A stretch of DNA of 64,000 nucleotides from contig CAIONS010000060.1 of assembly GCA_903859715.1 (NCBI GenBank), positions 1 through 64,000 on the forward strand. The letters are read 5' to 3'. Shown here in pieces: positions 45,656 through 61,004 of the stretch. Made by a program: the position numbers and the translations under genes. The notes under the pieces are model-generated. The model was not told where the DNA came from. It did not search any database and worked only from the letters and a program-made list of their open reading frames with translations. The stretch is from an uncultured Opitutia bacterium. Its GTDB lineage: Bacteria > Verrucomicrobiota > Verrucomicrobiia > Opitutales > Opitutaceae. Every line of letters begins with the position of its first letter. Position 1 is the stretch's first letter.

Positions 45656-45694
45656 GCACGAAGGTTGAAGTTCGAAGCTCGAAGGAATTTCGAA
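45656..45694. repeat. Family D repeat (left copy beside the low-GC gene)
   Basis: Sequence like agcacgaaggttgaagttcgaa with ttcgaac at its end. It is inverted relative to the copy at 46869-46901, so the pair brackets the gene 45870-46781. The gap 45646-45869 contains this and the inverted repeat of the next feature and no gene. Confidence 0.6.
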
Positions 45695-45869: not shown

Positions 45870-46781
45870 ATGAGCACCACTTATCGTAAACTGACTCAAT
45901 TTGGCGTGCTGGTGTTTGTTGCCTTGGGACTATTGGGCGCCGCCGAACTCATCTACGGCTCAAGCGATGGCGGAATAAATGTCCCAATTGATTTTTGGGG
46001 GCAAGTAGTGGACCAAACGGGTGCGCCGATCAGCGGAGTTCGCGTGGAATACAGTTACACCACCACCAGTATCGCGTTCGCCTGGGGTGTATCACGGGAC
46101 ACAAGAAAAGTAACTGTAACTGACAAGGACGGTTCGTTTTCAGCCCGGGGCCTTCGCGGCACCTGCCTGAACGTTAACTCCTTATCCAAGGATGGCTATG
46201 TCTCATCGAACCGGTTTCCCACATCGGGGATGATCTATAATTACGCGGGACATACTTCAGAGCCGAAGTTTGTTCCAAAGCAGAACCAACCGGTCGCGTT
46301 TATGTTGCTACGAAAGGAGGTGGCGGAGGCGCTCATACCCTACAACTCACGGCTGCACCTACCGGGTAATGGCATTCCCGTTCGATTTAACCTCGGGACT
46401 GGGCGTCAGGACCCCAAGGGCGAGTTGCAGTTTACACTGCATCGTGACCCTTCGGTCTACGTCTCAGGTCAATTGAAGTGGGAGGTGAAAGTCGAAGTGC
46501 TCGGCGGAGGCATCCAAGAAATGGATGAGAAGAACATCACATTCTATTTGGCCCCCATATCGGGCTATCACTCTGAAGGGGTCATCTGGACTACAAATCC
46601 TCGGGGTTCGGTTTTTATCAAAACCGCGCAAGGTCGGTATTGTCGTTTGAGGATCGAAATTTATCCTAACGACGAGGGTGACTTCGGCAGATGTTTTTTC
46701 GAGGGCTATCTAAACCCCACCGGCTCGCGGAATCTAGAATACCTTCAGGAACTCCCGCCCAACCACACGATTGGGGGATAA
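45870..46781 (+). CDS. Exported protein with a carboxypeptidase-regulatory-like Ig domain, low-GC, unknown function
   Basis: 303 residues. An N-terminal hydrophobic signal/anchor FGVLVFVALGLLGAAELIYG (residues 11-30) precedes an Ig-like domain (INVPIDFWGQVVDQTGAPISGVRVEYSYTTTS...KVTVTDKDGSFSARGLRG) as in carboxypeptidase-regulatory-like repeats. The rest is a beta-rich region without a family I know. Base composition is visibly less GC-rich than neighbours, with more A/T at third positions. Flanked by inverted family D repeats. Probably acquired. Confidence 0.65.
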   Translation: MSTTYRKLTQFGVLVFVALGLLGAAELIYGSSDGGINVPIDFWGQVVDQTGAPISGVRVEYSYTTTSIAFAWGVSRDTRKVTVTDKDGSFSARGLRGTCLNVNSLSKDGYVSSNRFPTSGMIYNYAGHTSEPKFVPKQNQPVAFMLLRKEVAEALIPYNSRLHLPGNGIPVRFNLGTGRQDPKGELQFTLHRDPSVYVSGQLKWEVKVEVLGGGIQEMDEKNITFYLAPISGYHSEGVIWTTNPRGSVFIKTAQGRYCRLRIEIYPNDEGDFGRCFFEGYLNPTGSRNLEYLQELPPNHTIGG

Positions 46782-46868
46782 TATTAGTGTTGCGATATCA
46801 GCCACGTAGTTTGGGGCCAAAAGTTGCAGCCAACTGCACGGCTCAATTTAAAATTGAAGGCCTGAGTT

Positions 46869-46901
46869 CTTTCGAGTTTCGAACTTTGACCTTCGAGCTT
46901 C
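46869..46901. repeat. Family D repeat (right copy beside the low-GC gene)
   Basis: Stretch tctttcgagtttcgaacttt followed by cttcgagcttc, an approximate inverted copy of 45656-45694. Confidence 0.55.
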
Positions 46902-46944
46902 CGCTGGACCTCCACCGGTTCCGCGATTGGCATTTGACGGGAGC

Positions 46945-47098
46945 GGTGGGCGACCTACCTTCGTACCCGACACCCTGCAGTGTTCGAGGTGCTTTCAATA
47001 ACTGCTCTTTGCCTTGAAATTATTACGGGAGCTGAACCCGCCGCGGAAGATGCTAGGCCGTAAACCGGAAAGCAGACGCTGTGGAGGAGGCGCCCACC
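46945..47098 (+). ncRNA. ssrS: Structured non-coding RNA candidate, 6S RNA-like
   Basis: The 379-bp gap 46782-47160 has no convincing ORF but folds as a rod. Perfect 8-bp end stem: GGTGGGCG (46945-46952) with CGCCCACC (47091-47098); continuing CCT-CCTTC with GGAGG-AGG; CAGTGTT (46978-46984) with GACGCTG (47075-47081); perfect TGCTTTC (46990-46996) with GAAAGCA (47068-47074). Above this is an open bubble, then a hairpin CGGG-agctgaa-CCCG (47026-47040). Closing stem, bubble, apical hairpin, the left-strand CCCTGCAGTGTTCG and length (~154 nt) fit 6S RNA, the RNA-polymerase-binding regulator. Strand is the one on which CCCTG...GTTCG lies left. No promoter or poly-T was clear. Confidence 0.55.
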
Positions 47099-47160
47099 TT
47101 AACTTAAAAAGGTCCTGAGCCTTTGGGCATACGGCACACGCGGGGCGTCACTCTTTTATC

Positions 47161-47505
47161 ATGGATCCGGTCTACTACAAAATCCTCCACGTCTTTGCGC
47201 TGCTCGTCCTGACCGCCTGGACCTTTGCGGCTTTCGCCAATCCGGCGCCTGAGACCCGCAAGCAGACGCTGATCATCACGGGCATCGCCAGCCTGCTCAT
47301 GCTCATCAGCGGGTTTGGCCTGGTGGCCAAGGTCTACGGCGGCCATTTCTTCGGCTGGATGATCGTGAAGGTCGTGTGCTGGCTGGTGTTTTCCGCGCTG
47401 GCCGGCCTGGCGTATCGCCGGCCGCAACTGCGGGGCAAGTTTGCGCTGCTCGGCTTCAGTGTGCTCCTCATCGCACTGGTGATGGTGTACATGAAGCCGT
47501 TTTAA
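47161..47505 (+). CDS. Small four-helix membrane protein
   Basis: 114 residues, four hydrophobic segments: VYYKILHVFALLVLTAWTFAAFA, TLIITGIASLLMLISGFGLVAKV, GWMIVKVVCWLVFSALAGLAY and FALLGFSVLLIALVMVYM. No family is certain; it resembles SirB2-like or other small DUF membrane proteins. It is 12 bp ahead of the DNA polymerase gene and may be co-transcribed. Confidence 0.65.
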   Translation: MDPVYYKILHVFALLVLTAWTFAAFANPAPETRKQTLIITGIASLLMLISGFGLVAKVYGGHFFGWMIVKVVCWLVFSALAGLAYRRPQLRGKFALLGFSVLLIALVMVYMKPF

Positions 47506-60929: not shown

Positions 60930-61004
60930 TGGTGCCCCCACGGGGAATCGAACCCCGCTTTGAAGATTGAGAATCTCCTGTCCTAACCGATAGACGATGA
61001 GGGC
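60930..61004 (-). tRNA. tRNA-Glu (CTC anticodon)
   Basis: Minus strand, 75 nt with encoded CCA. Acceptor GCCCTCA pairs with TGGGGGC, anticodon stem GGAGA/TCTTC with loop TTCTCAA (anticodon CTC, reads GAG), T arm GCGGGG-TTCGATT-CCCCGT. The integrase gene starts next to its 3' end, marking it as the attachment site of an element. Confidence 0.93.

Follow-up and report, generated by a model that had tools for sequence, protein, structure and literature searches.

The locus at positions 46969-47150 on the forward strand of the window, that is, of the whole 64,000-nucleotide stretch of DNA analysed, is with little doubt the 6S RNA gene (ssrS) of an Opitutaceae bacterium (Verrucomicrobiota), and the gene is almost certainly an ordinary one of a kind already known. 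6S RNA is a small bacterial RNA that holds back RNA polymerase; in other bacteria it is established that the RNA limits free RNA polymerase in resting cells.

Covariance-model evidence for a 6S RNA

The Rfam model for 6S RNA (RF00013) matched the 182 nt of the locus with a score of 55.1 bits (E 3.2e-08), the alignment running through model positions 1-187 of 187. The gathering score of RF00013 is 46.4, and the margin of only 8.7 bits was counted against certainty. A scan of the whole window at the Rfam gathering threshold gave two matches, this one and one tRNA, and the RF00013 match was the single one in the whole genome at E ≤10 (3,181,295 bases in 71 contigs, 97.81% complete). We also used a covariance model of our own, built from 48 distinct sequences comprising those of relatives and the window's own. 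When searched against the window's genome at E ≤1, it matched the same locus alone, at 189.8 bits, a score that is high by construction because the window's own sequence is in the model. The parts of the RNA are as follows.

46969-47150, + strand: 6S RNA (ssrS), based on the RF00013 match, the single genomic match and covariation
46969-46994, + strand: closing (terminal) stem, 5' strand, containing CCCTGCAGTGTTCG; partner 47125-47149
47125-47149, + strand: closing stem, 3' strand (consensus helices 1 and 2)
47004-47015, + strand: downstream helix P2, 5' strand (GCTC, CCTT), the presumed product-RNA template (consensus helices 3 and 4)
47109-47120, + strand: P2, 3' strand (AAGG, GAGC), from the consensus structure
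47016-47026, + strand: central bubble, 5' side, unpaired in the consensus structure
47027-47095, + strand: apical arm and loop (consensus helices 5-8)
47096-47113, + strand: central bubble, 3' side, and start of the 3' P2 strand, with a possible 5-bp hairpin ACCUU/AAGGU as a putative release switch

Conservation of the fold in the family

Conservation of the fold was assessed in an alignment of 33 Opitutaceae members (32 distinct sequences). The structure projected from Rfam, which is independent of this alignment, has 48 pairs; 80.2% of its cells were paired, compared to 36-44% for slid versions, and both-side changes occurred in 20 of the 48 pairs. On four of five measures this structure was reached by 0 of 500 shuffles, and on the fifth, further pair types, by an unremarkable 49 of 500. 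Several of the Rfam-projected pairs, such as some midway along the apical arm, are absent in most family members. The RNAalifold consensus, which is derived from the alignment, had 97.5% of cells paired (38-48% when slid) and both-side changes in 14 of 43 pairs, and none of 500 shuffles did as well on any of the five measures. Note that the shuffles ignore relatedness, so that the slid control carries more weight.

Each part of the consensus was well paired in the 33 family rows. For the closing stem (helices 1 and 2), 94.5% and 98.4% of cells were paired, with both-side changes in 9 of 20 pairs. Helix P2, in which 47004-47007 pairs with 47117-47120 and 47012-47015 with 47109-47112, had 100% and 96.9% of cells paired (helices 3 and 4) and both-side changes in 1 of 8 pairs; the corresponding values for the apical arm (helices 5-8) were 92.2-100% and 4 of 15 pairs. 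At the level of predicted structure, these data demonstrate that the canonical 6S rod of closing stem, open central bubble and apical arm is kept in the family with compensatory changes.

The initial annotation of this DNA had called the locus a 6S-like RNA, and had named a search with RF00013 and compensatory changes in relatives as means to check the call. Both bear it out: the entire model is matched above the gathering score (55.1 versus 46.4), and the compensatory changes, at 14 of 43 consensus pairs, support a 6S fold. The likeness it saw between CCCTGCAGTGTTCG (46973-46986) and the conserved 6S left-strand segment is also correct, this motif lying within the 5' strand of the closing stem.

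Occurrence in relatives and in the phylum

Of 57 related genomes, counting the window's own, 50 matched RF00013, each with one copy, and 49 of these exceeded the cut-off. By group, the family contributed 33 of 37 genomes and the order's other families 17 of 20. The window's score is typical of its genus, the 12 members of which score 52.3-59.6 bits; the best score is 77.9 bits in the order and 100.7 bits in a sample of the phylum. Our own model recovered three of the seven genomes missed by RF00013 (G012, G020 and G034), raising the number to 53 of 57. Its search of the remaining four gave no match in G022, G042 and G052, and one of only 12.4 bits at E 0.9 in G053; two of these four genomes are 67% and 50% complete, one is of 0.9 Mb, and G053 is 95% complete. 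The 6S RNA of G005 is identical to the window's and that of G004 to that of G002, and the 48-sequence set leaves G004 and G005 out of the 50 hits as equal to G002 and G000.

In the phylum sample of 194 genomes, at least 104 matched RF00013 at E ≤0.001 and at least 73 exceeded the cut-off. The 57-genome and 194-genome searches were run with the stricter filters used for more than 40 genomes, the phylum search scoring at most 12 candidates per genome, and their counts are lower bounds. The 90 phylum genomes with no RF00013 match include families f30, f24 and f35 among others, and 79 of them have a completeness of 90% or more and a contamination of 5% or less. These lineages may have lost the RNA, or their 6S RNAs may have diverged beyond the reach of the Rfam model and filters, as was the case for the three misses of the family that our own model later found.

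A pattern search of named genomes, based on the promoter boxes described below together with the first 22 bases of the RNA, yielded 49 stretches. These come from records named Opitutus, Opitutaceae, Opitutae, Opitutia, Opitutales, Rariglobus, Verrucomicrobiia or Verrucomicrobia, and 48 of the 49 record titles begin with MAG, indicating that the lineage is mostly known from metagenome-assembled genomes. The pattern itself includes the boxes and the RNA start, and the 49 stretches were kept out of every conservation count. Two of them, L055 and L092, are on two contigs of one MAG (Opitutaceae, new MAG-7), each with promoter boxes and a 6S start; their RNAs differ at 25 of 182 positions in an ungapped comparison. 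The MAG may hold a second 6S gene, or its assembly may be mixed. No title or abstract joining 6S RNA with Verrucomicrobia or 'Opitut' was found in the literature collection searched, beyond which the literature may differ.

Candidate promoter and 3' end

Sequences flanking the RNA contain candidate signals for its transcription.

46934-46939, + strand: -35-like element TTGACG of the candidate 6S promoter, from a pattern common to relatives
46956-46961, + strand: putative -10-like element TACCTT, 7 nt before the RNA start
47151-47157, + strand: T-rich stretch directly 3' of the RNA, a candidate 3' end or termination signal

The layout is promoter-like, with TTGACG, 16 nt, TACCTT and 7 nt preceding an RNA start at 46969. 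Among relatives the -10-like element varies (TACCGT, TACGGT, TAGNNT and others), the box sequences are steady and the intervening bases are highly variable. All 12 genus members have the pattern TTGAC-N17-TANNNT, which was picked after inspecting the sequences, no more than 60 nt ahead of the RNA; so do 30 of the 33 family members (G018, G019 and G029 being the exceptions), but only 3 of the 17 from other families. Across 311,594 nt of family loci (both strands) the pattern has 31 sites, 30 of which are these promoter sites. The stricter form TTGACN, 16 nt, TACSKT occurs 6 times in the window's genome, against 2 for the control, arguing that it does not represent a frequent promoter type. A scan of 46700-47300 on both strands for sigma-70 consensus promoters and terminators returned nothing, TACCTT included; the boxes surfaced solely through comparison of relatives. 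A short intergenic repeat of the type TCGAACTTTGACCTTCGAGC lies just upstream of the promoter candidate at 46879-46898 (+) and again at 45656-45675 (-, 3 mismatches); its 16-base core has 24 matches in the genome with up to 2 mismatches, versus 2 for a control.

At the other end, 31 of the 32 family loci for which flank is available have a TTT no more than 12 nt past the RNA, as do 10 of 16 loci of other families. Together with the closing stem, this TTT could form a termination signal.

Gene neighbourhood

The gene order in the window is clpS, DUF2017, a 303-aa gene, 6S, a SirB-like gene of 114 aa and a family-B DNA polymerase; the Pfam matches are 4.6e-19 for ClpS and 4.1e-06 for DUF2017. 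The nearest neighbour downstream is the following.

47161-47505, + strand: SirB-like membrane-protein gene (114 aa), a neighbour outside the RNA, with a Pfam SirB match below the cut-off (E 2.4e-05)

Its start codon is 11 nt past the last base of the RNA. A SirB-like gene is found in 29 of the 32 other family loci, always downstream on the same strand and with its start 9-168 nt past the RNA, and in 10 of the 11 other genus members this distance is 9-13 nt. Within the flanks examined, which are mostly 1.5-3 kb and in G036 lack the downstream side, 24 of the same 32 loci contain the polymerase, and ClpS and DUF2017 occur in 27 each. The clpS-DUF2017-6S-SirB-like-polymerase neighbourhood is thus largely kept in the family. 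The 303-aa open reading frame (45870-46781), between DUF2017 and 6S, has a weak carboxypeptidase-regulatory-like Pfam match (2e-06, below the cut-off); tblastn found no match to it in any of the 49 other loci, and it is possibly a lineage-specific insertion. A tRNA-Glu with anticodon ctc is located at 60930-61004 (-) of the window (Rfam scan, ARAGORN).

The closeness of the SirB-like gene raises the question of whether the RNA is a cis-regulatory leader, a riboswitch or attenuator of the SirB-like and polymerase genes that scores as 6S by accident. The constant strand and order in the family and the short spacing in the genus are what such a leader would give, but the RF00013 match is full-length, a T-rich stretch separates the RNA from the gene, and 17 of the 20 genomes from other families also have the 6S match, with no SirB-like match at any of the 17 loci (16 of the 17 with at least 726 nt of downstream flank, G037 with 2). 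The RNA thus appears not to be tied to the SirB-like gene, and we consider a leader very improbable. In the genus, a start codon 9-13 nt behind the closing stem leaves little room for a separate ribosome-binding site. An unlikely but conceivable reading is that in the genus the 6S RNA and the SirB-like gene form one transcription unit, in which 6S maturation or polymerase occupancy would set downstream output.

The initially drawn fold

The initial annotation had drawn a rod at 46945-47098, starting 24 nt too early and ending 52 nt too early relative to 46969-47150; an interval ending there leaves out the strands that complete the closing stem and helix P2 on the 3' side. Its left arm (46945-46952) lies in the spacer between the promoter boxes, and so would not be transcribed from the candidate promoter. 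The drawn pairings do exist as a computed fold: ViennaRNA closes 46945-47098 with the 8-bp stem GGTGGGCG (46945-46952)/CGCCCACC (47091-47098) at -60.9 kcal/mol, and only 2 of 200 shuffles were equally stable (z -3.14). The structure conserved in the family is a different one. The computed fold of the drawn interval has 11 of its 50 pairs in common with the Rfam fold, all of them in the apical arm, and only one of the 33 family members, the window itself, has the whole of the outer 8-bp stem, G005 having 7 of its 8 pairs. When the stem was taken together with 6 further outer pairs of the computed fold (14 pairs), 62.4% of cells were paired, versus 47-58% for slid versions; letter shuffles were as high in 2, 3, 3, 8 and 39 of 500 cases on the five measures, and a slid version of the outer stem covaried more than the drawn register (0.145 versus 0.118). 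CGCCCACC owes its conservation to lying within the 6S RNA; its proposed partner GGTGGGCG is not conserved. With the outer stem complete in a single member and barely above its slid versions, we rejected the drawn fold as the conserved structure.

Folding energy of a single sequence was likewise set aside as not decisive: the true interval, 46969-47150, folded alone gave a z of only -1.79, with 11 of 200 shuffles equally stable, so that the wrong interval beats the right one.

For the drawn outer stem, chance pairing fits what the alignment shows, the stem being complete in one member and little better than slid. Extended to the locus as a whole, chance pairing in a gene-free gap, which the initial annotation had itself allowed for, is hardly credible in view of the covariance match, the conservation and the compensatory changes of the canonical fold. 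A decayed or non-functional 6S copy, to which a score below the best in the order and in the phylum sample might point, has a negligible chance of being correct, given a single match in the genome, a score typical of the genus, a sequence identical to that of G005, and the presence of promoter boxes and closing stem.

Proposed mechanism and a possible release hairpin

PMC8876501 describes 6S RNA as a mimic of an open promoter that ties up the housekeeping RNA polymerase; the RNA is set free once the polymerase has made a short product RNA on it, an event that opens helix P2. By analogy with known 6S RNAs, the RNA described here would imitate an open promoter and would occupy the RNA polymerase carrying the housekeeping sigma factor during slow growth. 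As in the rest of the 6S family, it would be released once its 5' bubble/P2 strand has served the polymerase as template for a short product RNA. A plausible template for this product lies around CCTT (47012-47015). According to PMC8414754, a GG occupies positions 4/5 in the product RNAs verified for E. coli, A. aeolicus and R. sphaeroides; applied here, this would place the start of the product RNA at about 47016 (47014-47016).

Copying would open P2, and the freed AAGGU (47109-47113) might then pair with ACCUU (47096-47100) on the 3' side of the bubble and so aid release. This hairpin excludes the CCTT/AAGG half of P2. AAGGU is predicted to sit in P2 with a probability of 0.70-0.77 before in silico blocking, and the predicted ACCUU/AAGGU pair probability is 0.19-0.22 in the free RNA and 0.85-0.98 with 47003-47016 blocked. 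Across the 32 distinct family rows, 90.6% of the hairpin cells were paired (34-57% when slid). Covariation was detected at one pair (3 cells, 2 of 500 shuffles), and two of the five measures were at chance, with 253 and 190 of 500 shuffles. In the 20-nt hairpin segment at least 4 pairs were predicted for 30 of the 33 family sequences and for 14 of the 17 from other families, some of which use different pairs. The mean energy of the segment was -2.78 versus -1.15 for shuffles in the family, and -3.55 versus -1.66 in other families; only 8 of 33 family segments and 6 of 17 others had no more than 5 of 100 shuffles equally stable. A 3'-bubble release hairpin in this RNA is offered as a suggestion from modelling and not as a result.

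Comparison with known 6S RNAs

For a lineage dominated by MAGs, the locus indicates where the 6S RNA probably begins and ends, which promoter it may use and which genes surround it. This information can be used in annotation and for tests in cultured Opitutaceae; the general picture of 6S RNA is unchanged.

The position of a protein gene after 6S on the same strand, in an arrangement conserved in the group, resembles the bicistronic ssrS-ygfA unit of E. coli (PMC2848244). The protein here is a SirB-like membrane protein and not the folate enzyme encoded by ygfA, and co-transcription would here be a conjecture. The release hairpin of gamma-proteobacteria (PMC8876501) has a possible counterpart in the predicted hairpin of the 3' bubble, which in silico is similarly favoured once P2 opens; the predicted hairpin has 5 bp here, compared to 9 bp in E. 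coli. The 6S RNAs of lactic acid bacteria share the canonical rod and a neighbourhood conserved at the family level, according to PMC8414754, although their neighbours are rarA and uspA and the -10 of the Weissella candidates is TATAAT. The closest likeness is to RF00013 and SsrS themselves, with which the RNA agrees in its length, its closing stem with CCCTGCAGTGTTCG, its open central bubble, its apical arm, its end-to-end alignment and its presence as one gene; it differs only in details, these being the GC-rich -10-like TACCTT and the gene neighbours of this family.
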